Part shown: positions 13,878 to 30,209 of the stretch, piece by piece
How the letters are laid out: every line of letters begins with the position of its first letter
Numbering within the stretch: position 1 is the first letter of the stretch
NCBI RefSeq assembly: GCF_022271405.1
Contig: NZ_JAJNAL010000017.1
Coordinates: 1 to 64,000, forward strand
Source of the DNA: Rhodopseudomonas infernalis
Lineage (GTDB): Bacteria > Pseudomonadota > Alphaproteobacteria > Rhizobiales > Xanthobacteraceae
Length of the DNA stretch: 64,000 bases
Direction: 5' to 3'
Notes under the pieces: model-generated
What the model was told of the DNA's origin: nothing
Seen by the model: only the letters and a program-made list of their open reading frames with translations
Databases searched by the model: none
Position numbers and translations under genes: made by a program

Positions 13878-14333
13878 TTAGTTCGCGCCGAGCAGCGACT
13901 GCGTCGTGCGCTGACCGGAAGGCGTCAGCATCGAACGTAGCTTGGCGTAGATCCGGACGGCGAGGCCGATCAGCTTCGGCTGGGTGCGGCGACAGAACGC
14001 GATCTTGCGGATGTGGCCTTCGACATGCCAGCGCGCGCTGGCGCCGTCCTTGAAGAAGATCACGTCACCCGGCCCGTAGCGCTTTGCCGGCAGACCGTCG
14101 CCCTCGATCACCACCGAGCCTTCGAGGATGCAGATCGTTTCGTCGATGTCGTAGTGCCACTCGAACTTGCCCTCGGTGCAGTGCCAGATGATCGTCGAGG
14201 CCATGCCGTCGGCGCTGCGTGACAGGGGGCAGTTGGTCGCCACCGGATTGCCTTCGAGAATCCACGACGGCTCGATCGGTGCGGGCTTCAATTCGACTTG
14301 CGTCGTGGCGGTGAGGATCAGATTGCTGGTCAT
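13878..14333 (-). CDS. Cupin-domain protein (DUF861-like)
   Basis: This 151-residue single-cupin protein has the two cupin motifs: TEGKFEWHYDIDETICILEG with a likely metal-binding HYDIDE cluster, and YGPGDVIFFKDGASARWHV. Cupin_3 members include ureidoglycine aminohydrolases, isomerases and small sensors, so the reaction cannot be named. GAGGA precedes the ATG. It lies 61 bp downstream of the carrier-protein gene on the same strand and is probably co-transcribed with it. Confidence 0.85.
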   Translation of the reverse strand: MTSNLILTATTQVELKPAPIEPSWILEGNPVATNCPLSRSADGMASTIIWHCTEGKFEWHYDIDETICILEGSVVIEGDGLPAKRYGPGDVIFFKDGASARWHVEGHIRKIAFCRRTQPKLIGLAVRIYAKLRSMLTPSGQRTTQSLLGAN

Positions 14334-14394
14334 CCGGTCGGCTCCTCTGAGGTGCTACGGTTCATTGGTGTGATGCTGGGATGTCGAATGGAAT

Positions 14395-14667
14395 TCAGGC
14401 GGCCTGCAATTGAAGGCGACGAAGAACGAGACGCTCGATGGTCTCGACCGACGTGAAGTTCTCGGGAGTGATCTCGGATTGCGGCAGCATGAGATCGAAC
14501 GCCGCCTCGACGCCGAGCATCAGATTGACCATCTCCATCGAGGTCAGTCCGGCATCGGCCAGGCGCGTGTCGGGCTGCACGGGGCCGGAGGCCGCGTTCT
14601 GTGCGAGGATCGACTGCACCAATTCGAGGATTGTGGTCTGAACGGCAGTGGATGTGCCGGCCTGCAT
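14395..14667 (-). CDS. Acyl/peptidyl carrier protein, probable partner of the adjacent ligase
   Basis: This 90-residue free-standing carrier protein has the 4'-phosphopantetheine attachment serine at residue 43 in DAGLTSMEMVNLM. It is not the housekeeping AcpP, whose motif is DSLDTVELV-like. A near-perfect GGAGGT ribosome site precedes the ATG. It is divergent from the acyl-CoA dehydrogenase and aaRS-like ligase genes, with a 352-bp shared control region. Carrier proteins beside such aaRS-like ligases are their known acceptors in Bradyrhizobium, so aminoacylation of Ser43's pantetheine is expected. Confidence 0.9.
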   Translation of the reverse strand: MQAGTSTAVQTTILELVQSILAQNAASGPVQPDTRLADAGLTSMEMVNLMLGVEAAFDLMLPQSEITPENFTSVETIERLVLRRLQLQAA

Positions 14668-15019
14668 GGCTACCTCCGGGGCGGTGTTTCGCGCGCGTGG
14701 CCAAATCCCTCGCGTCGCGTATTTTGATTAGTCGAGATGTAATCGCAGAAAACTTGCGGAAACAATTGCGGCGCATTGTCCGCATCGGCTTTCGAATTTT
14801 AACGCTAACGGGAAACCCGCGATTTCTCGGTATTCATACAAGCCCGGATTAACCCTCGAATTCGAATGCAAATTGATTCACTTTGAATCATCTCGACGTC
14901 GCCAAGGCTCGTCCGTAGCGTGTCAGTCGCAAGATGCGGCGCGCAACGTCCTGCTGATCGCGCGGTGCAGCGTCCCGACTCATCACTTGCACTGTCCGTC
15001 TCAAAGGAGACCCGCCGCC
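14668..15019. promoter_or_regulatory. Divergent control region, ACP1 and dehydrogenase
   Basis: These 352 bp separate two divergent units. A perfect palindrome TGATTCA-CTT-TGAATCA lies at 14874-14890, about 130 bp before the dehydrogenase ATG. Its right half contains TTTGAATCA, which recurs at 25556-25564 in the divergent region before the sulfhydrylase gene. No gene is seen within the region. Confidence 0.5.
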
Positions 15020-16243
15020 ATGGCGATGATGACTGATCATGCGGTCCACGATTTTGCCCCATCGGCCGTTCCGTTCCGGCACGCTGCTGTCCCATTGTCG
15101 CAACGCGTGGCACAGGTCGCCGCGATCGCGGCGGTCGAAGCCGACAGCGTCGACCAGGAGTCGCGCTTCCCGGCGGCCGCGATCGAGGCTGCGCGTGCTC
15201 ACGGCCTGCTCGGCGCCCAGATCCCGGTCGAACTCGGCGGCGAGGGCGCGTCGATCCACGACGTCACCGAGATGTGCTACACGCTCGGCCGCGCCTGCGC
15301 GTCGACCGCGATGATCGTGGCGATGCATCAGACCAAGGTGGCTTGCCTGGTCCGCCACGGCCGCGGCAGCGCCTGGCACGAACAATTGATGCGCCGGCTC
15401 GCGGCGGACCAGCTGCTGCTGGCGTCGTCCACGACCGAGGGCAATAACGGCGGCAACATCCGCGCCAGCGCTGCGGCGATCGAAGTGACGGCCGAGGCGG
15501 TGTCGCTGGTACGCGACGCCACGGTGATCTCCTACGGCGCCCAGGCCGACGGCGTGATGACGATCGCGCGCCGCGCCAATGATGCGGCCGCGTCCGATCA
15601 GGTGCTGGTGGTGTTCACCAAGGAAGACTACACGCTGCGGCCGACGCTCAGCTGGGAGACGCTCGGCATGCGCGGCACCTGCAGCCGCGGCTTCGAGCTC
15701 AAGGCCAACGGTCTCGCCGCGCAGGTGTTCACGGATCCGTACGACCGCATTCACGCTCAGACCATGACGCCGGTGGCGCATCTGTCATGGTCGTCGGCCT
15801 GGGCCGGCATCGCGGCGGCGTCAGTGGAGCGCGCGCAGGCCTTCATCCGCAAGGCGGCGCGCGGTGCCGGCGGGCAGCTGCCGCCCGGCGCCGCGCACTA
15901 CAATGCGGCGAAGCGCTCGCTGATCAAGCTGCGCGCGCTGATCGCCGCCAATCTCGATACGTTCGCGGCGGCGGAGTTCGACGAGCGCGCGCTCGGCTCG
16001 CTGGATTTTCAGTCGGGCATCAACCTGCTCAAGGTCGAGGCTTCGGAACTGGCGGTGGAAACCGTGATGAGCGCGATGCGGGCCTGCGGCCTGGCGGGCT
16101 ATCGCAACGACGGCGACTTCACGATCGGGCGGCATCTGCGCGACGTGCTGTCGTCGCCGCTGATGATCAACAACGACCGCATCCTCGCCAATATCGGCAC
16201 CGCCAGCCTGATGGCCGCCGTGCCGGCGACGCTGCGCGACTGA
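15020..16243 (+). CDS. Acyl-CoA dehydrogenase-like flavoprotein acting near a carrier protein
   Basis: This 407-residue member of the acyl-CoA dehydrogenase superfamily has N-terminal helices, a middle FAD-binding beta domain (SSTTEGNNGGNIRA; WETLGMRGTCSRGF) and a C-terminal helical domain. The usual YEGT catalytic-Glu segment near the C terminus is replaced by PLMINNDRI, so the standard base is absent. AAAGGAGA precedes the ATG at 15020. The gene is followed after 32 bp by the aaRS-like ligase and is divergent from ACP1, which suggests oxidation of a carrier-bound aminoacyl or acyl group rather than a CoA ester. That substrate is inferred. Confidence 0.85.
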   Translation: MAMMTDHAVHDFAPSAVPFRHAAVPLSQRVAQVAAIAAVEADSVDQESRFPAAAIEAARAHGLLGAQIPVELGGEGASIHDVTEMCYTLGRACASTAMIVAMHQTKVACLVRHGRGSAWHEQLMRRLAADQLLLASSTTEGNNGGNIRASAAAIEVTAEAVSLVRDATVISYGAQADGVMTIARRANDAAASDQVLVVFTKEDYTLRPTLSWETLGMRGTCSRGFELKANGLAAQVFTDPYDRIHAQTMTPVAHLSWSSAWAGIAAASVERAQAFIRKAARGAGGQLPPGAAHYNAAKRSLIKLRALIAANLDTFAAAEFDERALGSLDFQSGINLLKVEASELAVETVMSAMRACGLAGYRNDGDFTIGRHLRDVLSSPLMINNDRILANIGTASLMAAVPATLRD

Positions 16244-16275
16244 TCAACGAACCAGATTCAGAGGAGTCACTCCGC

Positions 16276-17217
16276 ATGAACGTCGCGATCCGCTCCATCC
16301 CGTCGGAAGCCGCCGCGCAGCCGGTCGATCCGCTCGATCATCTCGCCGCGCATCTGTTCCACAAGCTCGGCGCCGACGGCGTCTATGCGCGCACCGCGCT
16401 GTATGAAGGCATCGTCGAGAAACTCGCGGCGCTGATCTCGCGCCATCGCGAGACCGGCACCGAAGTGATGCGGTTCCCGCCGGTGATGAGCCGGGCTCAA
16501 CTCGAGAAGTCCGGTTATCTGAAGAGCTTTCCGAATCTGCTCGGCTGCGTCTGCGGCCTGCACGGCACCGAGCAGGAGATCAACGCGGCGGTGAGCCGGT
16601 TCGACGCCGGTGGCGATTGGACCACCTCGCTGTCGCCGGCCGATCTCGTGCTGTCGCCCGCGGCCTGCTACCCGGTCTATCCGATCGCGGCGAGCCGCGG
16701 CCCGCTGCCGGCCGGCGGCCTGCGCTTCGACGTCGCCGCGGATTGCTTCCGCCGCGAGCCGTCGAAGCATCTCGACCGGCTGCAGTCGTTCCGGATGCGC
16801 GAATACGTTTGCATCGGCGCGCCGCAGGATGTCGCCGAGTTCCGCGAGCGCTGGATGGTCAAGGCGCAGGCGATCGCCCGCGATCTCGGCCTGGCGTTTC
16901 GGGTCGACACCGCGTCCGATCCGTTCTTCGGCCGCGTCGGCCAGATGAAGGCGATCAGCCAGCAGCAGCAGGCGCTGAAGTTCGAACTGCTGGTGCCGCT
17001 GCGCTCGGAAGAATCCCCGACCGCCTGCATGAGCTTCAACTATCACCGCGAGCATTTCGGCGTGACCTGGGGCATCGACGACACCGACGGCAACCCCGCC
17101 CACACCGGCTGCGTCGCCTTCGGCATGGACCGGCTCGCAGTCGCGCTGTTCGCCACCCACGGCATCGATACGAGCGCGTGGCCGGCGAGCGTGCGTGAGG
17201 TGCTGGCGCTGGACTAA
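16276..17217 (+). CDS. Amino acid:[carrier protein] ligase, aaRS class II-like
   Basis: This 313-residue protein is a truncated homologue of the atypical (zinc) seryl-tRNA synthetase catalytic core. Bradyrhizobium and Agrobacterium homologues activate glycine or alanine and load carrier proteins instead of tRNA. The zinc ligands fall at Cys131 (SPAACYP), Glu176 (RMREYV, motif 2) and Cys279 (HTGCVAFGMDRL, motif 3), the same positions described for the Bradyrhizobium enzyme. No tRNA-binding arm is present. GAGGAG lies before the ATG. The neighbours ACP1 and the dehydrogenase give the probable acceptor and next step. Amino-acid specificity cannot be read from sequence. Confidence 0.9.
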   Translation: MNVAIRSIPSEAAAQPVDPLDHLAAHLFHKLGADGVYARTALYEGIVEKLAALISRHRETGTEVMRFPPVMSRAQLEKSGYLKSFPNLLGCVCGLHGTEQEINAAVSRFDAGGDWTTSLSPADLVLSPAACYPVYPIAASRGPLPAGGLRFDVAADCFRREPSKHLDRLQSFRMREYVCIGAPQDVAEFRERWMVKAQAIARDLGLAFRVDTASDPFFGRVGQMKAISQQQQALKFELLVPLRSEESPTACMSFNYHREHFGVTWGIDDTDGNPAHTGCVAFGMDRLAVALFATHGIDTSAWPASVREVLALD

Positions 17218-17225
17218 CAAACGCG

Positions 17226-17442
17226 CCGTCGTTCCGGGGCGCGCGTAGCGCGAACCCGGAAGCTCGTCTGTGGACACCAGCCTCTCCACGTCATTCCGGG
17301 ATGCGCTGCGAAGCAGCGCAGGCCCGGAATCCATATCCACTGTCATTGCATTGAAGCACGGCTGCTGCAACGCCCATGTATCACCGAGAGTCCAGGGAGT
17401 ATGGATTCCGGGTTCGCGCTTCGCGCGCCCCGGAATGACGAG
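17226..17442. repeat. GTCATTCCGGGG-type palindrome cluster
   Basis: At least three half-elements occur: 17228-17262, 17289-17333 and 17400-17440, all containing CCGGGG/CCCGGAAT motifs in opposing orientation. The same family occurs at 22511-22622 and 57292-57412. It fills the space between the converging ligase and SDR genes. Confidence 0.7.
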
Positions 17443-17462
17443 AGGTTGGTAATCGAAGCGAG

Positions 17463-18194
17463 CTACGCCGTATTCCCGGCGTCGATGGTTTGCACCGATC
17501 CGGTGATGTTGCGGCCGCCGTCGCCGAGCAGGTACTCGACCATGCGGGCGACGTCGTCGGCTTCGGCGAGGCGGCGCAGGGCGCTGCGGTTCGCGATCTT
17601 GTCGCGGCCTTCGCCGGCGAGGCCAGAGGTCAGCTCGGTGTCGATGAAGCCGGGCGCGATGGCGTTGACGGTGATGCCGAGCCGGCCGACTTCGCGCGCC
17701 AGCGACCGCGTGAAGCCGATCGCCGCCGCCTTGGTGGCGCCGTACACCGACAGGCCGTTGTAGCCGGTCGAGCCGATGATCGATGACATGTTGATGATCC
17801 GCCCGCCGCCATCCGCCATCATGTTGCGGACGACGTACTTGGTCAGCACCATCGGCGAGGTTACGTTGATGCGCAGCAGCGCTTCGATCTGGCTGTTGTG
17901 CATCGTCGCCAGCACGCCCTCGGTGCCGATGCCGGCATTGTTGACGAGGCCGTAGATGGAGCCGAACTCGCGGCGCAGTTCCTTGACGAAGCCGGGGATG
18001 GCGTCGATCTCGCCGAGATCGAACGGCTTGAAGGCGATCGAGCCGTCGCCGTTCGCCGCGGCCGCGATCGCGGCCTTCAGCTCGTCGCTCTCGCGCCGCG
18101 CCACGGCGATCACCCCGTAACCGCCGGCTGCGAGGCGCTGCGCGATCGCCAGCCCGATGCCGCGGCTGCCGCCGGTCACGACGACTTTACGCAT
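17463..18194 (-). CDS. FabG-like short-chain dehydrogenase/reductase
   Basis: This 243-residue classical SDR has the cofactor motif TGGSRGIG (9-16 region), NNAGIG, the catalytic SS...YGATK segment (NMSSIIGSTGY; VYGATKAA) and the C-terminal GSVQTIDAGNTA typical of FabG-type 3-oxoacyl-ACP reductases. The ATG at 18194 overlaps the stop of the adenylate-forming ligase by 8 nt, so the two are co-translated. With ACP2 in the same operon, the likely substrate is a carrier-bound 3-oxo or imino group, inferred from context. Confidence 0.9.
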   Translation of the reverse strand: MRKVVVTGGSRGIGLAIAQRLAAGGYGVIAVARRESDELKAAIAAAANGDGSIAFKPFDLGEIDAIPGFVKELRREFGSIYGLVNNAGIGTEGVLATMHNSQIEALLRINVTSPMVLTKYVVRNMMADGGGRIINMSSIIGSTGYNGLSVYGATKAAAIGFTRSLAREVGRLGITVNAIAPGFIDTELTSGLAGEGRDKIANRSALRRLAEADDVARMVEYLLGDGGRNITGSVQTIDAGNTA

Positions 18195-19569
18195 GACGGG
18201 CCAGCTTGCCGGAGGCGGTGACGTCGAGCTGCGGCACGAAGTTGACCACCGCCGGCACCTTGTGGGCCGGCAGCGCACGCCTGCACTCGGCGAGGATCGC
18301 CTCGCGGATCTCGCCGGTGCGTCCGGAGTCCGACACGTTGGCCAGCAGCACGTCGGCGACCACCAGCGCGCCGGTGATCGGGCTGCGCCGCGAGCGGATC
18401 CGCGTCATGCGGACCGCGGGGTGACGGTTGATCACGGCTTCGACTTCCTCCGGATGCACTTTTAGGCCGCCGACATTGATGATGCCGTCGCGGCGGCCGA
18501 CGAAGTAGTAACGATCGTCACGCAGCTCGACCATGTCGCCCGTGTCGATGAAGCCCTCGGCATCGGCGAGCTGCGGTGCGCCGGCGCCGACGTAAGTATG
18601 CGCGGTGCGGCCGGAGCGGATCCGCAGCGAGCCGTCGACGACCTTCATCTCGACGCCGGTGGGGCTGGTGCCGATCATCGCGGCGGGAAAGCCCTCGCGA
18701 CCATCATTGACCGCGAAGCCGACGCCGGCCTCGGTCGACGCGTAGGCATGGCCGATCGACGCGTCGGGAAAGGCGCGGCGCAGGCTGTCGAGCACCGCCT
18801 GGTCGGCGATCTCGCCCGACAGCCGCACGTAGTTCGGGCGGAAGCTGGTGATCGCGGCACTCATCAGCGCCTTGCGCCAATGCGACGGCGTTCCCGAAAG
18901 ATGCGTGACGCCGCGTGCGGCGAGCCGCGCCAGATGATTGATCACCTGCTCGCCCGGCGCCGACAGCACCATCGAGCCGCCGCCGAGCACGGCGCGCAGG
19001 AAGATCTGCAGACCGCCGTAGCGGCGGATGTCGTAGAAGGTCGCCCAGGTCGGCGGCGTGCCAGACGGCGCACCATCGGCAACGATCGCGCCGGTCAGGG
19101 CAGCCAGCGTATGGGCCACGATCTTCGGCGCACCTGTGGTGCCGGAGGTCAGCATCAGCCACTGCGTGCTATGCGCCAGCTCCGGCGGCTGCGCCGACCG
19201 CAACGGCAGCGCTGCCGGCACGATCAGGTCGACGCCGAGGCCGGCCCAGCGTGCCGCATCGTCGGTCACGATCGCGTCGATCTGCGCGTCCGCGATCAGC
19301 GTGGCGGCGTAGTCCATGTTGAAGTCGGGCGGGCACAGCAGCATCCGCCGCACCACGCCATCGAGCTCGATCATCGCGATGCCGCTGAGCAGCTGCGTCG
19401 ACAGCGACAGCACCACGGCGCGGCCCGCCAGCTCCGGGAGTCGGCCGCCCAGCACGGTTCCGCGTGCGATGTCGGCGATCGCGACGGTGTCTGCCGCGTC
19501 GGACAGCGTGCGGTCGCTCACACCCGCCGCGAGATAGTTGCGCAGCGCGCTGATTTCACGCGGGGACAT
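18187..19569 (-). CDS. Adenylate-forming ligase (AMP-dependent acyl/aminoacyl ligase)
   Basis: This 460-residue ANL-superfamily enzyme has the P-loop MLTSGTTGAPKI, the AYASTEAGVG A5-type motif, FIDTGDMVELRDDRYYFVGR and the hinge region, with the C-terminal catalytic lysine in ASGKLAR. It is free-standing and somewhat shorter than typical CoA ligases (500-560). It overlaps ACP2 by 14 nt and the SDR by 8 nt, so it probably loads its acid directly onto ACP2. The substrate is unknown. Confidence 0.88.
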   Translation of the reverse strand: MSPREISALRNYLAAGVSDRTLSDAADTVAIADIARGTVLGGRLPELAGRAVVLSLSTQLLSGIAMIELDGVVRRMLLCPPDFNMDYAATLIADAQIDAIVTDDAARWAGLGVDLIVPAALPLRSAQPPELAHSTQWLMLTSGTTGAPKIVAHTLAALTGAIVADGAPSGTPPTWATFYDIRRYGGLQIFLRAVLGGGSMVLSAPGEQVINHLARLAARGVTHLSGTPSHWRKALMSAAITSFRPNYVRLSGEIADQAVLDSLRRAFPDASIGHAYASTEAGVGFAVNDGREGFPAAMIGTSPTGVEMKVVDGSLRIRSGRTAHTYVGAGAPQLADAEGFIDTGDMVELRDDRYYFVGRRDGIINVGGLKVHPEEVEAVINRHPAVRMTRIRSRRSPITGALVVADVLLANVSDSGRTGEIREAILAECRRALPAHKVPAVVNFVPQLDVTASGKLARHA

Positions 19570-19801
19570 TCTCGTACGCCTTGATGAAGTCGCCCAGCGT
19601 CACCGGAAAGATCGCGTCGTCGGCGGTGGTGAACGGATCGACGCCGAGCGTGTCCTCGAGCCGTGCGACCAGAATGGCGAAACACAGCGAGTCGAAGCCG
19701 GATTGGTGTAGTACCAGATCGTCGGTGAGCGCCGGCAGCTTGCGGTTCTGCTCGGCTGCGATCTCTTCCATCATCTTCACAATCGTTAACCGTACAGACA
19801 T
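19556..19801 (-). CDS. Second free-standing acyl carrier protein
   Basis: This 81-residue carrier protein has the phosphopantetheine serine at residue 38 in QSGFDSLCFAILV. Its sequence differs from ACP1 at 14395-14667. AGGAAGG precedes the ATG by about 9 nt. It heads an ACP2/ligase/SDR operon with overlapping genes and is divergent from the GNAT-like gene, 105 bp away. The short spacing suggests a compact shared promoter. Confidence 0.88.
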   Translation of the reverse strand: MSVRLTIVKMMEEIAAEQNRKLPALTDDLVLHQSGFDSLCFAILVARLEDTLGVDPFTTADDAIFPVTLGDFIKAYENVPA

Positions 19802-19906
19802 CGTTATTTCGCCTTCCTGATCGATCCGTGAGACAACACCATAGGGCGCAAAGATGAAGCGAATCTATGTGCGTAGCTCGCAATTCCGGTCGATTGGTAA
19901 ACGCTG

Positions 19907-20773
19907 ATGAACGCCCCTCAAGTGCGCTGCCGTGAAATCGTCGAAGGCGATATCGAAGCGGTCTCGGACCTGCTGACGCGGGGGTTTTCGGGTCGTACGC
20001 ACGATTACTGGCGCAGCGGTCTCCACCGCCAGCGCGCACGGGACATTCCGGCTGATTGTCCGCGTTACGGTTATCTGCTCGAGACCGAGGGCCGGCCGGT
20101 CGGCGTGCTGCTGCTGATCTATGCGCCGCGCGGTTCGGGTCTGCTTCGCTGCAACGTGTCGAGCTGGTATGTCGACCCCGAGTTCCGCAACTACGCGACG
20201 ATGCTGACCTCGATGGCGCAGAAGAACAAGGCGGTCACCTACGTCAACATTTCGCCGGCGGTGAATACCTGGCCGATCATCGAGGCGCAGGGCTTCCGCC
20301 GCTATTGCGCCGGCATGTTCGTGGCGGTGCCGCTATTGTCGCGCGCCGAGCCCGGCATGCGGGTCGAACGTATCACCGGCGACACCGGCGCGGTGGCCGG
20401 GCTGCCGGAGGCCGAGTTCGACTTGCTGCGCAGCCACGCCGGCTATGGCTGCCTGTCGCTGGTGGCGCGCGTCGGCGGACAGGCGATGCCGTTCATCTTG
20501 CTGCCGAAGCGGATGAAGCACGGCCGCTATCCGACGCCGGCGATGCAACTGGTGTATTGCCGCGACGTGGCGGAGTTCGTGCGCTGCGCCGGCGCGCTCG
20601 GCCGCGCGCTGCTGTGGCGCGGCGCTCCGCTGGTGGCGCTCGACGCCAACGGACCGATCGACGGTCTGAAGGGCCTCTACTCGGATTCGCGCGGCCGCAA
20701 ATACTTCAAGGGGCCGAACCCGCCGCGGCTCGGCGATCTCACCGAAACCGAACTGGTGCTGTACGGCCCGTGA
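19907..20773 (+). CDS. GNAT-like acyltransferase family protein
   Basis: I do not recognise a specific family for this 288-residue protein. The first 150 residues resemble a GNAT N-acyltransferase fold (REIVEGDIEAVSDLLTRGF; SSWYVDPEFRNYATML; IIEAQGFRRYCAGMF). The second half may be a degenerate repeat of it (VYCRDVAEFVRCAGALGRAL). It lies between the ACP2 operon and the ThDP enzyme, 31 bp upstream of the latter, and is likely co-transcribed with it. Transfer of an acyl group from a carrier protein is plausible but unproven. Confidence 0.65.
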   Translation: MNAPQVRCREIVEGDIEAVSDLLTRGFSGRTHDYWRSGLHRQRARDIPADCPRYGYLLETEGRPVGVLLLIYAPRGSGLLRCNVSSWYVDPEFRNYATMLTSMAQKNKAVTYVNISPAVNTWPIIEAQGFRRYCAGMFVAVPLLSRAEPGMRVERITGDTGAVAGLPEAEFDLLRSHAGYGCLSLVARVGGQAMPFILLPKRMKHGRYPTPAMQLVYCRDVAEFVRCAGALGRALLWRGAPLVALDANGPIDGLKGLYSDSRGRKYFKGPNPPRLGDLTETELVLYGP

Positions 20774-20804
20774 CGGCCGGCGCCTCACAACACAGGGAAA
20801 CGCC

Positions 20805-22484
20805 ATGCATCAACCGCTGAAGAGCCGCACCGCCGCGGAGGCGCTGGTCGATCAACTCGTGATCTGCGGTGTCAAGCACGTGTTCTGCGTGCCGGGCGAG
20901 AGCTTTTTGCCGGTGCTGAACGCGCTGCGCGACCGCGACATCACCATCACGGTGTGCCGCCACGAAGGCGGCGCCGCGATGATGGCGGAGGCGATCGGCA
21001 AGGCGACCGGCCAGCCCGGCATCTGCTTCGTCACTCGCGGGCCGGGCGCCACCAACGCGTCGGCCGGCATTCACGTCGCGCGGCAGGATTCGACGCCGAT
21101 GATCATGTTCGTCGGCCAGGTCGAGCGCAGCGTCAAGGAACGCGAGGCGTTTCAGGAACTCGATTATCGCGCCGTGTTCGGCAGCATGACGAAGTGGACT
21201 ACCGAGATCGACGATGCGGAGCGCGTCACCGAACTGGTGTCGCGCGCGTTCTACACCGCGACCAGCGGCCGGCCCGGTCCTGTCGTGGTGGCGCTGCCGA
21301 AGGATATGCTGAGCGAGCGCGTCAATGTCGGCAACGCGCCCGGTTACAAGCAGGTCGAGACCTCGCCGGGCGACGAGGAAATGCTGGAACTGGCGGCGCT
21401 GCTGGCGAATGCGCAGCAGCCGCTGCTCGTGCTCGGCGGCAGCCGCTGGAGCCTGAAGGCGCGCGAGCAGATCGAGGACTTCGCGACCCGCACCGGTCTG
21501 CCGGTCGCCACCAGCTATCGCCGCGGCACGCTGTTCGACGTGATGCATCCGCGCTATGCGGGCGATCTCGGCCTCGGTCCCAATCCGAAACTGGTGGCGC
21601 GCGCCAAGGCGGCCGACCTGATGGTGCTGATCGGCGGCCGGCTCGGTGAAATCCCGTCGCAGGGCTATGCGTTGCTGGAGAGTCCGGTGCCCGCCACCAA
21701 GCTGGTGCATATCCATCCGGGCGCCGAGGAACTCGGTCGGGTGTATCGGCCGCAACTCGCGATCCACGCCTCGCCGATCCGCTTCGTCGCGGCGCTGAGC
21801 AAGCTCGACATCGCGCCGCAGCCGGCTTGGCGGGAGGCGGCCGATGCGGCGCATGCGGAGTATCTGGCCTGGACCGAGACCGCGACGCCGCAGCCGGGCG
21901 ACGTCAATCTCGGCGAGGTGATGGTCTGGCTGCGCGACAACGTGCCGGCCGACACCATTCTGTGCAACGGCGCCGGCAACTACGCGTCGTGGATCCATCG
22001 CTTCTATCGTTTCCGCAACTACATGACGCACATTGCGCCGACGTCGGCCTCGATGGGCTACGGCATGCCGGCCGCGATCGCGATGCAGCGGCTGCATCCG
22101 GAGCGCCTGGTGCTGTCGGTCAATGGCGACGGCGACTTCCTGATGAGCGGGCAGGAGTTCGCGATCGCCGTGCAATATCGGCTGCCGATCGTCACCATCA
22201 TCGCCGACAACGGCATGTACGGCACCATCCGGATGCATCAGGAGCGCGAATTCCCCGGCCGCGTCGCGGCGACCGAGCTGCATAATCCGGATTTCGCAGC
22301 CTACGCCCGCGCATTCGGCGGCTTCGGCGCGAATGTCGACAAGACCGCCGATTTTCCGGCGGCGTTCGCGGCAGCACGTAGCTCGGGATTGCCGTCGATC
22401 ATCCACCTCAAGATCGACCCCGACGCGATCCTGCCGGGCGCGACGCTGTCGGGCATCAAGCAGGCAGCGCTGGCGAAGGGGTGA
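20805..22484 (+). CDS. ThDP-dependent enzyme, acetolactate synthase-like
   Basis: This 559-residue thiamin diphosphate enzyme has the three domains of the family. The activating Glu54 sits in VCRHEGGAAMM. A central Rossmann-like domain follows. The C-terminal ThDP/Mg site begins at about residue 440 (NGDGDFLMSGQEF; IADNGMYG). It resembles acetolactate synthase large subunits and related carboligases or decarboxylases. No regulatory small subunit is encoded nearby, arguing against a role in branched-chain amino acid synthesis. CAGGGAAA precedes the ATG. The substrate is likely a 2-oxo acid, unspecified. Confidence 0.88.
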   Translation: MHQPLKSRTAAEALVDQLVICGVKHVFCVPGESFLPVLNALRDRDITITVCRHEGGAAMMAEAIGKATGQPGICFVTRGPGATNASAGIHVARQDSTPMIMFVGQVERSVKEREAFQELDYRAVFGSMTKWTTEIDDAERVTELVSRAFYTATSGRPGPVVVALPKDMLSERVNVGNAPGYKQVETSPGDEEMLELAALLANAQQPLLVLGGSRWSLKAREQIEDFATRTGLPVATSYRRGTLFDVMHPRYAGDLGLGPNPKLVARAKAADLMVLIGGRLGEIPSQGYALLESPVPATKLVHIHPGAEELGRVYRPQLAIHASPIRFVAALSKLDIAPQPAWREAADAAHAEYLAWTETATPQPGDVNLGEVMVWLRDNVPADTILCNGAGNYASWIHRFYRFRNYMTHIAPTSASMGYGMPAAIAMQRLHPERLVLSVNGDGDFLMSGQEFAIAVQYRLPIVTIIADNGMYGTIRMHQEREFPGRVAATELHNPDFAAYARAFGGFGANVDKTADFPAAFAAARSSGLPSIIHLKIDPDAILPGATLSGIKQAALAKG

Positions 22485-22510
22485 GGGTGCGGTTTCCTTG
22501 CCACTAGCAC

Positions 22511-22622
22511 CGTCATTCCGGGGCGCGCGCCCTTGCGCGCGAACCCGGAATCCCGAGGTAGTTTGGCACACTGCTTCACCGCGCGAGATTCCGGGTTCGC
22601 GCTACGCGCGCCCCGGAATGAC
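22511..22622. repeat. GTCATTCCGGGG-type palindrome
   Basis: Complementary ends (CGTCATTCCGGGGCGCGCG and CGCGCCCCGGAATGAC) flank internal CCCGGAAT/ATTCCGGG pairs. It lies between the converging ThDP-enzyme and aminotransferase genes. It belongs to the same family as 17226-17442 and 57292-57412. Confidence 0.75.
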
Positions 22623-22670
22623 CGCGGAGAGGACCTTGATTGTTCGATAGTCAGAGGCGGTTGACCGCAC

Positions 22671-23615
22671 TCACCCGTGCGCGAAGTCCCAGTACAGCTT
22701 CCTTGCACGCGCATAAAACGGGCCGGGCTGCAGGGTGCGGTCGTCGATGCGGATGATCGGCTGGACCTTGGCGAAGTTGCCGCTGGCGAAGATCTCGTCG
22801 GCCGTGGTGAAATCCTCGTAGCGCATTGTGGTTTCCACCACGTCGGCGCCGTCGCCCCGCAGCAGGTCGATGACTCGCCGCCGGGTGACGCCGTTGAGGA
22901 AGGTGCCGTTCGGCGCCGGCGTGTAGATCACACCGTCCTTGGCCATGAAGATGTTCGAGTTGCCGAGTTCGGCGATGTTGCCGAGCATGTCGCGCATCAG
23001 GCAATTGCCGAAGCCGCGGCTCTGCGCTTCGATCATCGCGCGTGAATTGTTCGGATACAGGCAGCCGGCCTTGGCGTCGACCACCGCGCAATCGGCGCTC
23101 GGCTTGCGGAACGGCGACAGCGTGATCGACAGGCCGGTCGGTTTCGGCATCGGCGCTTCGTAGATGCACAGGCACCAGTTGGTCGTCTCGGGATCGAACA
23201 GCACGCCGCCGCCGGCGCCGTTCTGCGCCCAGTACATCGGGCGGATGTAGAGCTCAGCTTGGGGGGCGAACCGCTTCAGCCCGTCCTGCACCAGGCCGTG
23301 CCAGGTCGCATGGTCGACCATCGGCTTGAGCTTGAAATTGGTCGCCGACCAGTTGACCCGCGCGATGTGTTTGTCGAGATCAGGCGTCACGCTTTCGAAG
23401 GCGCGCCCGCCGTCGAACACCATCGAGCCGAGCCACGCGGCGTGGGTGCGGGGGCCCATGATCGGCACGTTGCCGTCGTGCCAGTCGCCGTCGAAGAAGG
23501 TCCAGGTCGTCGAGTAGTTCACCGCGGCGACGGCGGGCGCGGCGAGGCGGCTGCGCGGCGGCGGGGCTGCGGTGTCGGGGCGGACAGAGCGGGCTTCAAG
23601 CGTATCGTGCGGCAT
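22671..23615 (-). CDS. Fold-type IV PLP aminotransferase (branched-chain type)
   Basis: This 314-residue class IV aminotransferase has the PLP lysine at about residue 182 (VDAKAGCLYPNN), the MLGNIAELGNSNIF segment and the ASGNFAKVQPI region. Most relatives are annotated as branched-chain amino-acid aminotransferases. The ATG at 23615 overlaps the stop of the acyl-CoA synthetase by one base, so the two are coupled; a GTG one codon earlier is possible. A 2-oxo acid made by the ThDP enzyme could be its substrate, which is inference. Confidence 0.88.
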   Translation of the reverse strand: MPHDTLEARSVRPDTAAPPPRSRLAAPAVAAVNYSTTWTFFDGDWHDGNVPIMGPRTHAAWLGSMVFDGGRAFESVTPDLDKHIARVNWSATNFKLKPMVDHATWHGLVQDGLKRFAPQAELYIRPMYWAQNGAGGGVLFDPETTNWCLCIYEAPMPKPTGLSITLSPFRKPSADCAVVDAKAGCLYPNNSRAMIEAQSRGFGNCLMRDMLGNIAELGNSNIFMAKDGVIYTPAPNGTFLNGVTRRRVIDLLRGDGADVVETTMRYEDFTTADEIFASGNFAKVQPIIRIDDRTLQPGPFYARARKLYWDFAHG

Positions 23616-25435
23616 CACACTCTCACCTCTGCGTTGACGAGACGTCGATAGAGCGCCGCGTCCAGCGCTACGTAGTGGCCGGCTGGGGCATCGGCGAAAT
23701 ACAGCGGATCGCTGATCCGATCGGGGTCGAAGCCGTCGTCGATCAGGTCCTGTTTCTTCTGCTTGAAGGTGCCGGTGATCTCCAGCGCCGGACGCAGCCG
23801 GACAAACAGCGGGCGCGCGAAAGCCGGAAGCCGCTCGGCGACGTGGCGATACAAAGCTTCCAGATCGAAGCCGTCAGCGACCACCAGCGCCGCCATGCCG
23901 GCGCGGCCATCGCTGTGCGGCACAGCCACGCCATAGACGCTGGCGTCGACCACGCCGGGGCAGGTGGCGAGTGTCTCTGCGACTTCGCTCGCCGCGACGT
24001 TCTCGCCCTTCCAGCGGAAGGTGTCGCCGATGCGGTCGACGAAATGAAAGAAACCCTTGTCGTCGCGCAACATCAGGTCGCCGGTGCGAAACCAGGCGTC
24101 GCCGTCCGCGAACACGTCGCGCAGCACTTTCTTGTCGCTCTCCGCCGCGCTGGTGTAGCCCTCGAAGCGGCCGCCGCGCGCATCGGCTTCGCCGATCCGG
24201 CCGATCGCCTCGCCGGCCTCGCCGGGCGCACAACGGATGCAGCGCCCCTCGGCATCGCGCAGCGGCAGTCCGGCCTCGATGTCGAACTTCACGATCGCGG
24301 CCGGAAAGCGATGCGCCAGGAACGACGGGATACGCCCGATCGCCCCTCGCTCGCCCTCGACATTGTAGAGCGAGAAATTGCCTTCGGTTGATGCGTAGAA
24401 TTCGAGGATGCGCGGGATCGCGAACCGGGTCTGGAACGCGTCCCAGACGTCTCCGCGCAGGCCGTTGCCGCAGACGAGTCGCAGCCGATGCCGCGTCTCG
24501 CGCGGCGAGGGCGGCGCCTGTAGCAGATAGCGGCACAGCTCGCCGATATACTGAAACAGTGTGCAGTCCCAGTGAACGATGTCGTCCCAGAACCGGCTCG
24601 CCGAGAACTTCTCGGCGATCACCACCGCGCCGCCGGCCATCAGCATGCTGCCCGGCGCGACCACGCCGCCGACGCTGTGATACACCGGCAGGCAATTGTA
24701 CATCCGGTCGTCGGCCGCGGCATCGGTCAACCCGGCGAACCAGCCGGCCCAGCTCATCACCCGCCGATGCGTCACGCGCGCCGCCTTCGGGAGCCCGGTG
24801 GTGCCGGAGGTGTAGATCAGCAGCGCGAGGTCATCGACGGTGATGTGGCGCTGCTCACGAAGAGCTTTGCCTTCGCTGGCAGCGAGCGCGGGTTCGATCG
24901 AGTTCTCACCGAGGTTTCCGCCGTGCTGCCACAGTCGCGGCGCCGACGTGAGATGTGCGCGGGCGCCGGCGAAAGCGTCGATCAGATCGTGCGCCACGAT
25001 GATGTGCCGAGCCTGCGCGATGTCGATGCAGTGCGCCAGCGAGGCGCCGAGCAGCTGGGTGTTGATCAGTGCCACGACGCCGCCGACGCGTGTGATGCCG
25101 AGCCAGGCGGCCAGATAGTCCGGCCGGTTCGGCATCAGCAGACACACCGTGTCGCCCCTGGCGATGCCATGCGCGATCGCCCAGTTCGCATAGCACCCGA
25201 TGCGGGCCGCGAGCTCGGCGTAGTTCAGCGAGTTCTGCTCGGACAGAATGGCAGGGCGGTCCGGCGTCGCGGCGGCGTGGTCGGCGATGACGTCGGCGAG
25301 CAGGCGATCCGGCTGCTGCTCGATCCGCGCGGTGATCTCGATCGCCTTCAGCCAGCTCTTCGCGACGGACGGTTTTGCGGCCGGCGGAGCACCATTCGAA
25401 GCGGTGGCTATCAATGCGGTTGGTTGCATGTTCAT
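23615..25435 (-). CDS. FATP/FadD6-type acyl-CoA synthetase
   Basis: This 606-residue ANL-superfamily ligase has the P-loop IYTSGTTGLPKAA and the EFYASTEGNFSLYN motif characteristic of the long/very-long-chain FATP-type acyl-CoA synthetases. AWFRTGDLMLRDDKGFFHFVDR and TFKQKKQDL lie near its end. It activates a carboxylic acid as acyl-AMP and then acyl-CoA. The ATG at 25435 or 25429 is the likely start; neither has a strong binding site. It is coupled to the aminotransferase and divergent from the sulfhydrylase, 272 bp away. Confidence 0.87.
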   Translation of the reverse strand: MNMQPTALIATASNGAPPAAKPSVAKSWLKAIEITARIEQQPDRLLADVIADHAAATPDRPAILSEQNSLNYAELAARIGCYANWAIAHGIARGDTVCLLMPNRPDYLAAWLGITRVGGVVALINTQLLGASLAHCIDIAQARHIIVAHDLIDAFAGARAHLTSAPRLWQHGGNLGENSIEPALAASEGKALREQRHITVDDLALLIYTSGTTGLPKAARVTHRRVMSWAGWFAGLTDAAADDRMYNCLPVYHSVGGVVAPGSMLMAGGAVVIAEKFSASRFWDDIVHWDCTLFQYIGELCRYLLQAPPSPRETRHRLRLVCGNGLRGDVWDAFQTRFAIPRILEFYASTEGNFSLYNVEGERGAIGRIPSFLAHRFPAAIVKFDIEAGLPLRDAEGRCIRCAPGEAGEAIGRIGEADARGGRFEGYTSAAESDKKVLRDVFADGDAWFRTGDLMLRDDKGFFHFVDRIGDTFRWKGENVAASEVAETLATCPGVVDASVYGVAVPHSDGRAGMAALVVADGFDLEALYRHVAERLPAFARPLFVRLRPALEITGTFKQKKQDLIDDGFDPDRISDPLYFADAPAGHYVALDAALYRRLVNAEVRV

Positions 25436-25554
25436 GAACGCCGGCCAGGCAATCTGTCGAGAAATCTCGATGCAGTTTATGCGAAACTGCTTGGCGATTG
25501 CTTGTGCCCGCTGTGACAAAGCGTCGGCAAGGTAAACGAATGGAATTGCATAAA

Positions 25555-25567
25555 ATTTGAATCAAAT
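25555..25567. promoter_or_regulatory. Palindrome in divergent region before sulfhydrylase
   Basis: ATTTGA-A-TCAAAT is a perfect 13-bp palindrome between the acyl-CoA synthetase and sulfhydrylase starts. It contains TTTGAATCA (25556-25564), the same 9-mer found in the palindrome at 14874-14890. This hints at a shared regulator, which is unproven. Confidence 0.35.
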
Positions 25568-25707
25568 TCGCTCGAAATGATCATCTGTCGTTAGGGTTAG
25601 TACGTCGTCGTTTCCGAAACTTGTTGTCGAATTAATCCTCCGCGTCTTAGCTAGCAGCATGCGCGAACTGCGTGCGAAGTGCAGGACGCCGATGCGGAGG
25701 TGACGCC

Positions 25708-27012
25708 ATGCGCAACGAGACGATTGCGATCCACGCCGGCTACGATCCCGATCCGACCACCAAGGCCGTCGCGGTCCCGATCTATCAGACGGCCTCCTAC
25801 GCATTCGACAGCGCCGATCACGGCGCCGCGCTGTTCAATCTCGAAACCGAAGGCTATCGCTACTCGCGGATCGCCAATCCGACCAGCGCGGTGCTGGAGA
25901 AAAGGGTCGCAGAACTGGAAGGCGGCGTCGGCGCGCTGGCGGTGGCGACCGGGCAGGCAGCGCTGCATTACTCCTTCGTCAACGTCGCCGATCATGGCGG
26001 CAACATCGTTTCGGTGCCGCAGCTCTACGGCACGACGCATACGCTGCTCGCGCACATCCTGCCGCGGCAGGGCATCACCGGCCGGTTTGCGGAGAGCGAT
26101 CAGCCGGAGGCGATCGAGCGGCTGATCGATGATGACACCCGCGCAGTGTTCTGCGAGACCATCGGCAATCCGGCCGGCAATGTCTGCGATATCGAGCGGA
26201 TCGCCGAGGTCGCGCATCGCCACGGCGTGCCGCTGATCGTCGACAACACGGTGGCGACGCCGATCCTGCTCAAGCCGATCGATTACGGCGCCGATATCGT
26301 GGTGCACTCGCTCACCAAGTTCCTCGGCGGCCACGGCACCACGCTGGGCGGCATCATCGTCGACAGCGGCCGGTTCGACTGGGCGGCGCAGCCGAAGCGT
26401 TTTCCGGCGTTCAATCAGCCGGATCATTCGTATCACGGCATGGTGTATGCCGAGCGGTTCGGGCCGACCGCCTATATCGAACGCGCGCGCAGCATCTATC
26501 AGCGCACGATGGGCTCGGTGCTGTCGCCGTTCAACGCCTTCCTGCTGCTGCAGGGCATCGAAACCGTGGCGCTGCGGATGGAGCGGCACGTCGAGAATGC
26601 CCGTAAGGTCGCCGAATTCCTCAAGGGCGACCCGCGCGTCGCCTGGGTGAACTACACCGGCTTCCCCGACAGTCCGTATTATCCGCTGGTGCAGAAGTAT
26701 CTCGACGGCCAGGCGTCGTCGCTGTTCACCTTCGGCATCAAGGGCGGGATGGAGGCCGGCAAGGCCTTCTACGACGCCCTCAAGCTGATCACCCGCCTGG
26801 TCAATATCGGCGACGCCAAGTCGCTGGCCTGCCACCCGGCGTCGACGACGCATCGTCAGATGTCGGTGGAGCAGCAACGCGTTGCCGGCGTGCTGCCGGA
26901 GACCATTCGGCTGTCGATCGGCATCGAGCACATCTCCGACATTCTGGCCGATCTCGATCAGGCGCTGGCCGCGGCGAGCGGTCAGCAGCCGCGCCTCCTC
27001 GCCGCCGAATAG
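25708..27012 (+). CDS. O-acetylhomoserine sulfhydrylase
   Basis: This 434-residue Cys/Met-metabolism PLP enzyme has the PLP lysine at residue 204 in HSLTKFLGGHGTTLGG and the family segments YSRIANPTSAVLE and HPASTTHRQM. It matches O-acetylhomoserine aminocarboxypropyltransferases, which replace the O-acyl group of homoserine with sulfide or another thiol to give homocysteine or an analogue. GGAGGTG lies before the ATG. The MetA-like acyltransferase follows after 13 bp, forming an activation and sulfhydrylation pair. Confidence 0.93.
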   Translation: MRNETIAIHAGYDPDPTTKAVAVPIYQTASYAFDSADHGAALFNLETEGYRYSRIANPTSAVLEKRVAELEGGVGALAVATGQAALHYSFVNVADHGGNIVSVPQLYGTTHTLLAHILPRQGITGRFAESDQPEAIERLIDDDTRAVFCETIGNPAGNVCDIERIAEVAHRHGVPLIVDNTVATPILLKPIDYGADIVVHSLTKFLGGHGTTLGGIIVDSGRFDWAAQPKRFPAFNQPDHSYHGMVYAERFGPTAYIERARSIYQRTMGSVLSPFNAFLLLQGIETVALRMERHVENARKVAEFLKGDPRVAWVNYTGFPDSPYYPLVQKYLDGQASSLFTFGIKGGMEAGKAFYDALKLITRLVNIGDAKSLACHPASTTHRQMSVEQQRVAGVLPETIRLSIGIEHISDILADLDQALAAASGQQPRLLAAE

Positions 27013-27025
27013 CAGGCGGGGCAGC

Positions 27026-28021
27026 ATGACCCTGCTGTTCGACAACATCGACCTGGCCCATGAGGCTTCGCTGGTTCCGGTCGGCGCATCCGACGCCGCG
27101 GCGAGTCTCGGTCCGCAGCCGGGCCGCCGCGTGTTGGAGATCGGCCTCGTCAACAACATGAGCGATGCGGCGCTGCGCGCGACCGAACGGCAGTTCCAGC
27201 GGCTGCTTCGCTTCGGCTCGGGGGATCAGCCGGTGCGGCTGCATTGCTTCGCGCTGCCCTCGGTGCCGCGCGCGGCCGCGACCCGTCACCGCATCGCCAG
27301 CCTCTACACCGATCTCGCCGGACTCGATCACCTTCGGCTCGACGGCCTGATCGTCACCGGCGCGGAGCCGCGCGCAGGCTCGCTGCGCGAGGAACCGTAC
27401 TGGGACGAGATGCGGGCGCTGGTCGACTGGGCGGCCGCCAACACGCGCTCGACGATCTGGTCTTGCCTGGCCGCGCACGCCGCGGTGCTGCATCTCGACG
27501 GCATCGAACGGCAGCGGCTGCGGCGCAAATGTTCAGGCGTCTATGGCTGCGCGCGGCAGGGCGACGACCCGCTGCTGGCCGATCTGCCCGCGCAGGCGCG
27601 CGTGCCGCATTCGCGGCTTAACGATCTTCCCGCCGAGAAGCTGAGCGCGGCCGGCTACACCGTGCTGACCCAGGCCGAAGGCGCCGGCGTCGATATCTTC
27701 ACCCGCGACGCCAGCAGCCGTTTCGTGTTCTTCCAGGGCCATCCCGAGTACGATCCGGCCTCGTTGCAGCGGGAATATCTGCGCGACATCGGCCGCTACC
27801 TGGTCGGCGAACGGGACGACTACCCGGACGTTCCGGTCGATTACTTCGACGCCGGCACCGAGCTGGCGCTGCAGGCCTTTCGCGCGGAAGCCGAAGCCGT
27901 CCGCGATCCGGCCCTGATCGCCAAGCTGCCGGCTTTGGCGATGCGCGACGGCATGGCCGCCGCAATCGAAGCCACCGCCGCCGCGCTGTTCCGCAACTGG
28001 CTGACAAGCCTCGCACAGTAA
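27026..28021 (+). CDS. MetA-like homoserine O-acyltransferase
   Basis: This 331-residue member of the homoserine trans-succinylase/acetylase fold has the nucleophile Cys147 (WSCLAAHA) and the QGHPEYD pair (His239, Glu241), matching MetA Cys142/His235/Glu237. The loop that sets acyl specificity, GAPLG in E. coli or GAPVE in acetyl-using enzymes, is GAEPR here, so it belongs to a divergent subfamily. The ATG at 27026 opens the conserved part, 13 bp after the sulfhydrylase stop. The acyl donor and the homoserine-like acceptor are not settled by sequence. Confidence 0.85.
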   Translation: MTLLFDNIDLAHEASLVPVGASDAAASLGPQPGRRVLEIGLVNNMSDAALRATERQFQRLLRFGSGDQPVRLHCFALPSVPRAAATRHRIASLYTDLAGLDHLRLDGLIVTGAEPRAGSLREEPYWDEMRALVDWAAANTRSTIWSCLAAHAAVLHLDGIERQRLRRKCSGVYGCARQGDDPLLADLPAQARVPHSRLNDLPAEKLSAAGYTVLTQAEGAGVDIFTRDASSRFVFFQGHPEYDPASLQREYLRDIGRYLVGERDDYPDVPVDYFDAGTELALQAFRAEAEAVRDPALIAKLPALAMRDGMAAAIEATAAALFRNWLTSLAQ

Positions 28022-29581: not shown

Positions 29582-29833
29582 TTATTGAACCTGGCCGGAG
29601 CGAAACTGTCGGATGGTGACGACACGCGCATCGCCTTTTCGTCTCCGATCTGCCGCAACACGGATGTGGCAACGGAGCACTGGCATCGATACGCAATCTA
29701 CTCTAATTGAAGCGACTTCGATGGCATGCAAATCGATAATTGCGTGTAGGGTAAAGAGCCTCGGTATTCGTTTGCAGAGAACCCCGCGACGTGTGCCCGG
29801 TTAACCATACCCGTACGAGCGGACGAGGTGTGG

Positions 29834-30193
29834 ATGGATCAGCTCCCGGCGAGATACGAGACGCTGCTGCGCATCGCGGCGTGGCTGTGTCTCGGGTTCA
29901 TCGCGATGGCGACGCTCAGTCCGCTCGGGCTGCGGCCGACGACCGGATGGTCACCGTCGATCGAGCGGTTTCTTGCCTTCGCCTTGGTCGGCGGCCTGTT
30001 TGCGGCGGCCTATCCGCGCTACATCGTGTTCGCCGCGCTGGTCGTGCTCGGCGGAGCTGCGTTGTTCGAAATTCTGCAGGTTTTCACGCCATCGCGGCAC
30101 GGCCGATTGTTCGACGCCGCCGTTAAATTCTCCGGCGGGACGTTCGGATTGATCGCGGGCTGGCTGTTCGTGCGCTTGCTGCCGCGACGCTGA
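29834..30193 (+). CDS. VanZ-like small membrane protein
   Basis: This 119-residue protein has about four hydrophobic segments and the VanZ-like signature ERFLAFALVGGLFAAAYP and EILQVFTPSRHGRLFDAAVKFSGG. VanZ-family proteins often accompany surface polysaccharide genes, with no defined biochemical role. It could start at the ATG at 29834 or a GTG at 29828. It converges with the GINT1-like gene, 16 bp away. Confidence 0.82.
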   Translation: MDQLPARYETLLRIAAWLCLGFIAMATLSPLGLRPTTGWSPSIERFLAFALVGGLFAAAYPRYIVFAALVVLGGAALFEILQVFTPSRHGRLFDAAVKFSGGTFGLIAGWLFVRLLPRR

Positions 30194-30209
30194 CGTCGTC
30201 CGCTGTCTT

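Follow-up and report, generated by a model that had tools for sequence, protein, structure and literature searches.

Thirteen genes fill positions 13878-28021 of the window that we analysed, the first 64,000 nucleotides of contig NZ_JAJNAL010000017.1 from a Rhodopseudomonas-like genome (Rhodopseudomonas infernalis), and this block, which includes an amino acid:[carrier protein] ligase resembling an aminoacyl-tRNA synthetase (aaRS), is very probably one co-inherited pathway. Its unity is supported for ten of the genes by their conservation, their co-occurrence and a natural deletion. Co-inheritance, gene clustering and sequence features lead us to propose that the pathway makes carrier-bound acyl groups derived from amino acids and places them on an amino sugar in a surface polysaccharide, a proposal that we consider evenly poised between right and wrong; the product and the individual reactions are predicted from gene families.

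The thirteen genes lie in six units of alternating strand: a cupin and a first carrier protein (CP1) on the minus strand; a flavoenzyme of the acyl-CoA dehydrogenase (ACAD) fold and the aaRS-like ligase (plus); a short-chain dehydrogenase/reductase (SDR), an ANL ligase and a second carrier protein (CP2) (minus); a GNAT-like acyltransferase and a thiamine diphosphate (ThDP) enzyme (plus); a class IV aminotransferase and a FadD-type acyl-CoA synthetase (minus); and an O-acetylhomoserine sulfhydrylase (OAHS) and a MetA-like homoserine acyltransferase (plus). Within units, neighbouring genes overlap or are spaced by 13-61 bases. All thirteen reading frames are open, with a third-position GC of 0.76-0.91 (0.79 in each of CP1 and CP2); starts were set by eye for the flavoenzyme (15020), ligase (16276), SDR (18194), OAHS (25708) and MetA-like (27026) genes. 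A first-pass annotation had described six alternating units with these enzymes, two distinct carrier proteins, and no nonribosomal peptide synthetase (NRPS) or polyketide synthase module. The units and enzymes are borne out by the open frames and family matches, the carrier proteins by PP-binding matches and a carrier serine kept in the homologues of both, and the last point by Pfam, in which none of the thirteen proteins showed a condensation, ketosynthase or acyltransferase module. The annotated acyl-CoA dehydrogenase homologue is one by family match, but its catalytic base is missing and its activity may be other than that of a dehydrogenase.

Co-inheritance of the gene set

The ten-gene set comprises CP1, flavoenzyme, ligase, GNAT, CP2, ANL, SDR, FadD, OAHS and MetA-like genes. 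We compared ligase loci in the best 80 of 564 confirmed relatives, hence close kin: 74 of Bradyrhizobium type and 6 from Rhodopseudomonas, the sixth of which is a 4-kb contig. The nearest ligases, 96% identical, are those of R. palustris 2.1.18 and Rhodopseudomonas sp. AAP120. SDR, ANL and CP2 adjoin one another, with the GNAT also present, in all five sufficiently long Rhodopseudomonas loci. CP1, flavoenzyme, ligase and GNAT stand together in 74/74 Bradyrhizobium-type loci; within reach of the ligase in these loci, SDR, ANL, CP2, FadD and cupin were found in none, the aminotransferase in 6, OAHS and MetA in 5 and ThDP in 1.

The set takes other arrangements elsewhere (genus names of genomes cited by G handles come from gene order and identity). 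Ligase, ANL and MetA occupy three separate places in 7/7 genomes of genus g2, a Bradyrhizobium by gene order, as in G361 at 0.60, 2.02 and 1.32 Mb, respectively. The second place reads FadD-CP2-ANL-SDR (L146-L148, three Bradyrhizobium-like genomes) and the third OAHS-MetA (L161). Genus g285, of the same family, has all ten genes side by side in L149 and L155, with order and orientation changed, its remaining loci ending at contig ends. In a taxonomic order other than the window's (the "other order"), 4 of 96 genomes have the ligase, of which G140 and G421 (L110, L123) carry the ten genes plus ThDP, reshuffled, and G441 ends at a contig end. G070, from another family, has the set spread over two contigs, with ThDP and with no CP1 recognised. 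ANL stands with CP2 and SDR in the block relatives read.

To follow the set across the family, we scored four markers in a sample of 198 genomes, most of those without a match being unlisted. Thresholds were >350 bits for the Bll0957-type ligase (chosen post hoc from the score list, in which the next lower score is 313), 1e-60 for ANL, and 1e-30 for MetA-like and GNAT. The ligase occurs in 23 genomes, ANL in 24, MetA-like in 25 and GNAT in 25; all four are found in 22 genomes and any of them in 27, with Fisher p values for marker pairs of 6e-25 to 5e-30 when kinship is ignored. All four are present in 3 of 47 genera and, within the window's genus, in 8 of 11 genomes, the other 3 being without ligase, ANL and GNAT. 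There are five exceptions: G543 (66% complete) has just the ligase and MetA, G590 (88% complete) yielded no ligase, G589 has two ANL copies and a GNAT, G520 has the GNAT alone and G600 has MetA alone. None of eight family genomes with 44-50% identical ligases is on the ANL list. The first-pass annotation had tentatively proposed one pathway, refutable by independent scattering of its genes in related genomes. The genes are indeed physically scattered in Bradyrhizobium-like genomes, but the markers are still kept together, and the claim is supported for the ten genes, not for ThDP, aminotransferase and cupin, which are inconstant. Marker co-occurrence and reshuffled recurrence also disfavour a chance neighbourhood.

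A natural deletion is seen in Rhodopseudomonas G600, where sites matching window positions 14350 and 26530 are only ~100 bases apart. The missing 12.2 kb runs from CP1 through the first part of OAHS and leaves the cupin, MetA and a C-terminal piece of OAHS (DNA from about codon 275; protein residues 315-430). Distance matrices of eight block genes over 12 taxa correlate (Spearman 0.50-0.89), a result given no weight because kinship alone can produce it. In a GNAT tree, Rhodopseudomonas and Bradyrhizobium block GNATs cluster, the G070 block GNAT pairs with Methylocystis (support 0.951), and the G589 GNAT is placed with a support of only 0.217.

The OAHS gene (25708..27012, plus strand; Cys_Met_Meta_PP, TIGR01326, 612 bits) belongs to a block-specific clade. 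OAHS of this type (at least 72% identity) is present in 14/14 block genomes, divided by a contig end in G621, and none of 6 further genomes examined has it at full length; the remaining OAHS paralogues, at most 54% identical, occur in 20/20 genomes with or without the block. Likewise, a MetX-like gene (445-491 bits, below the curated cut-off of 500) is found in 16/16 genomes irrespective of the block. The block-specific MetA-like gene (27026..28021, plus strand; HTS/MetA NF003776, 451.5 bits with the upstream extension of the protein included, cut-off 358) is found in only 25 of the 198 family genomes and had no plasmid match at 1e-30. Because this OAHS is block-specific in its distribution and MetX and OAHS paralogues are present as well, OAHS and MetA belong to the block and are additional to the other methionine enzymes. 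Methionine biosynthesis as the reason for the pair is rejected, since the MetX-like gene and OAHS paralogues are present regardless of the block. A further candidate role for OAHS would be C-C bond formation like that in fusaric acid synthesis.

Proposed aminoacyl loading and oxidation

By sequence, the ligase (16276..17217, plus strand; NF005479, 481.6 bits, cut-off 357) is a close orthologue of the structurally solved Bll0957 of Bradyrhizobium. It matches PDB 3mey (Bll0957) over its full length (E 1.7e-183), and CP1, its carrier protein (14395..14667, minus strand; PP-binding, 26.8 bits), matches aminoacyl carrier protein 1 (PDB 4h2s chain C; E 1.8e-27). Residues 131, 176 and 279, read on a copy that is either the window's or that of L004, which share 96% identity, are C, E and C, which we take to be the Bll0957-family zinc ligands Cys131, Glu176 and Cys279. 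The ligase, at 313 aa, is without a tRNA-binding domain; seryl-tRNA synthetase, a protein of 518-527 aa, matches it with its C-terminal part only, over ligase residues 117-308. The carrier serine of CP1 is kept in 94 of 95 homologues by pattern and in the remaining one by eye. Loading of CP1 by the ligase is very likely the known Bll0957 reaction, and orthology suggests that the substrate is glycine, the amino acid that Bll0957 uses; ligases of this family load glycine or alanine.

Bll0957 and its carrier protein are this very system in another genus, where the flavoenzyme and the GNAT are again their neighbours. The accessible part of a 2022 review describes the reaction of Bll0957-type ligases, leaves their biological role open and contains no description of the ten-gene set (PMC9437257); a literature search, which covered few subscription papers, found none either. 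In a B. diazoefficiens phaR mutant under microoxia, bll0957 and bll0958 transcripts are each up 3.0-fold, and the protein log2 values are 2.5 and 1.7, respectively, according to the accessible part of the report (PMC10888616). From its name (acyl-CoA dehydrogenase) and neighbourhood, we infer that bll0958 is the flavoenzyme orthologue.

The flavoenzyme itself (15020..16243, plus strand; Acyl-CoA_dh, PF02771/PF00441) is probably not a dehydrogenase. Canonical acyl-CoA dehydrogenases carry their catalytic Glu in an IYEGT loop or on helix G. In the flavoenzyme, the loop position is Ile383 and the alternative helix-G position, likewise non-acidic, is Ala253 (alignment extended by hand), and the loop reads RDVLSSPLMINNDR. 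The motif RDxxSxxxM[IVL][NS]NDR replaces the canonical loop in 115 of 118 extracted homologues (106 distinct sequences), the three exceptions being one truncated protein and two close variants. Ordinary fatty acyl dehydrogenation is rejected for the missing Glu, and glycine is without a beta carbon to desaturate. A structural model (overall pLDDT 74.5; below 50 at the catalytic-Glu loop) was compared with solved structures by Foldseek, with group D flavin monooxygenases and nitrososynthases as the candidate relatives: DszC/TdsC and a nitrososynthase fill ranks 1-14 (best E 2.8e-14), with a classical dehydrogenase close behind at rank 19 (E 1.0e-12). For a related cassette, the accessible part of a 2010 study predicts that the redox enzyme modifies the aminoacyl group, probably by monooxygenation (PMC2922099).

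The cassette of carrier protein, flavoenzyme and ligase recurs in Alpha- and Betaproteobacteria and in Priestia; 19 of 385 genomes of the sampled class have a match, 10 of them above the cut-off. The DUF1839-type surface-sugar aminoacylation system shares with the block this cassette, a predicted aminoacyl oxidation and a predicted sugar amine as acceptor. Thirteen of its loci, as read, carry DUF1839, twelve of these together with a GH2 glycosidase, and both follow the cassette in nine proteobacterial plasmid loci; unlike in the block, GNAT, CP2, ANL, SDR, OAHS and MetA are not beside the cassette. Conversely, the block has no DUF1839 (PF08893), and ANL was found in 0 of 10 genomes with other ligase types (DUF1839 in 4 of the 6 whose loci were read). 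DUF1839 is papain-like and possibly glycan-acting, as the accessible part of one paper has it (PMC10318531). A Streptomyces locus (L101) resembles the block in its consecutive carrier protein, ACAD-like enzyme and 33% identical ligase relative but differs in its 3-hydroxyacyl-CoA dehydrogenase and acyltransferase genes and in a nearby NRPS gene. Cassettes supplying aminomalonyl-acyl carrier protein are of the zwittermicin type; supply of such an extender is rejected here, the block having no 3-hydroxyacyl-CoA dehydrogenase or acyltransferase. On a Priestia plasmid (L099), AcpS-CP-flavoenzyme-ligase is followed by a transporter, an ATP-grasp protein, a hydrolase, an alanine permease and an alanine racemase, so the cassette may serve another product there.

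A possible polysaccharide destination and its rivals

The candidate transferase of the block, the tandem GNAT (19907..20773, plus strand), matched no Pfam or NCBIfam model, and a PDB search with its profile found nothing. Its predicted structure, from a 27-sequence alignment and of modest confidence (pLDDT 68.5), has two GNAT-like halves, and Foldseek matches to tandem GNATs include Eis, VipF and N-myristoyltransferase (template-modelling (TM) scores ~0.3); what the model supports is the fold class only. Distant GNAT homologues lie in polysaccharide clusters in 7/7 loci examined, five from 14 plasmid records plus the ligase-less genomes G589 and G520. L163 has GT4, GumC, Wzy and a deacetylase, and L164 has GumC, Wzy and a flippase; the others are L166, L167, L168, L172 and L173. 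Three of the polysaccharide-gene queries came from the remote loci themselves; the count is also 7/7 with the window's own exopolysaccharide (EPS) queries. The gene after the GNAT in L167, L168 and L173 is a homologue of the window's GINT1_N protein (30210-31730), an assignment for which Pfam was run on the window and L168 copies only. L168 is a plasmid labelled Roseateles sp. XES5 (UNVERIFIED) with a Shinella-like GNAT and EPS gene order; the label may be wrong.

CP2 (19556..19801, minus strand; PP-binding, 21.0 bits, cut-off 20.8), whose carrier serine in DS[LM] is kept in 43/43 extracted homologues, forms a triad with its presumed loader, the ANL ligase (18187..19569, minus strand; AMP-binding, PF00501/PF13193), and the FabG-like SDR (17463..18194, minus strand; adh_short PF00106, 180.6 bits). 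Remote CP-ANL-SDR triads stand with glycan genes in 3/3 cases examined, from 13 plasmid records. The glycan clusters of Azospirillum (beside pseI and flagellin), Qingshengfaniella and Haematobacter resemble the block in having a carrier protein, an AMP-binding ligase and an SDR consecutively; their ANL proteins are 38-42% identical to ours, over ~70% of the length in two of three, and no aaRS-like ligase, OAHS or MetA is annotated nearby. The Nod-factor genes NodB/NodA/NodF/NodG and the Vibrio cholerae O1 tetronate genes likewise direct a deacetylase, carrier protein, reductase or N-acyltransferase towards an amino sugar, but with different protein families and no known aaRS-like ligase. In all four other-order loci, ThDP has a polysaccharide deacetylase gene beside it, and in five of the six Bradyrhizobium-type loci with MetA in view such a gene is found downstream of MetA; the four copies scanned matched PF01522. 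Together, the distant GNATs, remote triads and deacetylase point to re-acylation of an amino sugar. A glycan destination is also favoured by the EPS cluster bordering the block and by a Tsukamurella locus whose ligase and carrier protein lie among glycosyltransferases. A surface glycan, which goes beyond the interpretation in the first-pass annotation, has on these sequence grounds about an even chance of being the destination.

In the pathway that we propose, the aaRS-like ligase would activate an amino acid, glycine by orthology, and load it on CP1, and the flavoenzyme would oxidise the aminoacyl group on CP1, either oxygenating it or oxidising its C-N bond instead of introducing an alpha,beta double bond. 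The ANL ligase would load a second acid on CP2, to be reduced there by the SDR. The MetA-like enzyme and OAHS would yield a homoserine- or homocysteine-derived building block, and FadD (23615..25519, true start probably near 25435, minus strand; AMP-binding, NF006134, 780.3 bits) would provide acyl-CoA. The tandem GNAT would couple a carrier-bound group to an amine, most likely of an amino sugar and possibly freed by the clustered polysaccharide deacetylase in Bradyrhizobium and other-order loci. A fully specified version, in which the synthetase-derived ligase opens an NRPS-free assembly, an amine N-oxygenase of ACAD fold oxidises glycine on CP1, the result is joined to a hydroxyacid carried by CP2 and to a dedicated unit derived from homocysteine or homoserine, and the GNAT installs the product on a deacetylated EPS amino sugar, is unlikely to be right in every part; if true, it would represent a new class of glycan substituent and give Bll0957-type ligases their first full biological role.

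Several observations weigh against this proposal. The GNAT is only 42-47% identical to its glycan-linked homologues, with TM-scores of ~0.3; the polysaccharide deacetylase is absent from the window; and, with insensitive queries, no polysaccharide gene besides the deacetylase matched beside the Bradyrhizobium modules and none at all in genus g285 or G070. The same queries gave no match, at the coverage used, in 18 other-type ligase loci (13 with DUF1839), a control that is specific rather than sensitive because one of them, the Tsukamurella locus in which ligase and carrier protein lie among glycosyltransferases, has annotated glycosyltransferases that the queries also miss at that coverage. 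The Rhodopseudomonas EPS cluster persists in the block-less G600, and adjacency alone is weak because the cluster stands there without the block. A glycan destination also leaves OAHS, MetA-like and FadD unexplained. On the side of gene content and chemistry, one of the four other-order loci (L122, G452) is without GNAT at the place, CP1 was not recognised in the G070 set, and a sequence-profile ranking of solved flavoenzyme relatives puts acyl-CoA dehydrogenases first and KijD3 fourth.

The chief alternative is that the one pathway makes a free specialised metabolite without NRPS or polyketide synthase, which a hydrolase would then release; such a product might be a glycine compound that is oxidised, N-acylated and linked to a homocysteine or homoserine moiety. 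The evidence for unity of the block applies equally to this alternative; 5 of 74 Bradyrhizobium-type loci and 4/4 other-order loci contain an Abhydrolase_3-type gene; amine N-oxygenases, among them KijD3 and DnmZ, resemble the flavoenzyme model; and OAHS, MetA and ThDP would be more typical of small-molecule assembly. Set against this, the distant GNATs and CP-ANL-SDR triads examined sit with glycan genes, and the flanking open reading frames scanned in selected loci include no constant exporter, so that we rate a free product as possible but rather doubtful.

It is a good deal less probable that the block serves sulfur or methionine metabolism, its carrier-protein enzymes supplying or consuming a compound of the methylthio or homocysteine kind. 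In its favour, OAHS and MetA-like are constant members, genes for MtnP-like and MtnA-like proteins come after CP1 in most Bradyrhizobium-type loci, and in G070 the ligase-OAHS-MetA group adjoins sulfate-activation genes; however, MetX (16/16) and other OAHS paralogues (20/20) occur irrespective of the block, and Mtn-like and CysD-like neighbours are each limited to one lineage among the loci compared. That most Bradyrhizobium-type loci keep only CP1, flavoenzyme, ligase and GNAT together could mean that these four alone are the system and that the other units came to lie at a favourable locus by chance. The ANL and MetA markers, though, still occur in the same genomes as the ligase when they lie far from it, and the full set returns in other lineages in new gene orders, which makes such a four-gene system highly improbable.

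Variable members, flanking genes and significance

Three block genes are inconstant. The ThDP enzyme (20805..22484, plus strand; TPP enzyme NF006052, 871.9 bits) stands at the block in four of the eight genomes of the window's genus that bear one; it does so too in G070, in genomes of the other order and in a single Bradyrhizobium-type locus, and its homologues in g2 and g285 genomes sit elsewhere in the genome; its best matches among solved structures, BbmA and acetolactate synthases, indicate no clear substrate. The aminotransferase (22671..23618, minus strand; NF009896, 472.4 bits) was found in all 15 block-bearing genomes tested from the window's genus and g2, in five of the six from g285 and in G070; it is missing from 3 block-less Rhodopseudomonas and 3 block-bearing other-order genomes tested. 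The EutQ-like cupin (13878..14333, minus strand; Cupin_3 PF05899, 67.5 bits) is found in 6/6 Rhodopseudomonas and 0/74 Bradyrhizobium-type loci; unrelated-looking cupins lie near two g285 loci, and the block cupin is otherwise seen in Rhodopseudomonas only. Hydrazine-type chemistry, which pairs a cupin with a MetRS-like protein, was dropped, as the cupin was seen in Rhodopseudomonas only and is kept by the block-less G600.

Outside the block, the adjoining EPS cluster (28229..41546), a possible destination, contains a flippase-like protein, the GINT1_N protein, glycosyltransferases, Wzz, a GH5 cellulase, WecG, an epimerase and a Wzy-like protein; the flippase (27.4 bits) and Wzy (29.0 bits) matches fall slightly below their Pfam cut-offs. 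The left flank (2912-8234) resembles nitrogen-fixation genes, with an HMGL/homocitrate synthase-like gene (2912-4087) and a flavoprotein with an ETF-QO match (6927-8234). Among Bradyrhizobium-type loci (L010-L083), MtnP-like (69/74) and MtnA-like (68/74) genes, a phosphorylase and an IF-2B-family gene named by family and context, follow CP1 directly on the same strand at ~5.8-7.9 kb. B. japonicum SZCCT0153 has two ligase loci on one contig (L025 and L028), both with the four-gene core, and L083, labelled Frankia sp. RB7, has the Bradyrhizobium-type gene order and is probably a mislabelled assembly. In G070 (L125:12703-15520), a PAPS_reduct family gene and a GTPase with an APS kinase domain adjoin MetA-OAHS-ligase-flavoenzyme.

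With the block, the ligase gains named partners in a defined set of genes inherited together, and there is a strain with a natural deletion as well as a hypothesis for the destination, so that the role of the ligase becomes testable in laboratory strains of Rhodopseudomonas and Bradyrhizobium. It offers a possible job for a tRNA-synthetase-like enzyme that lacks an assigned role. If the glycan reading is true, a synthetase-derived enzyme would supply cell-surface chemistry in these bacteria.

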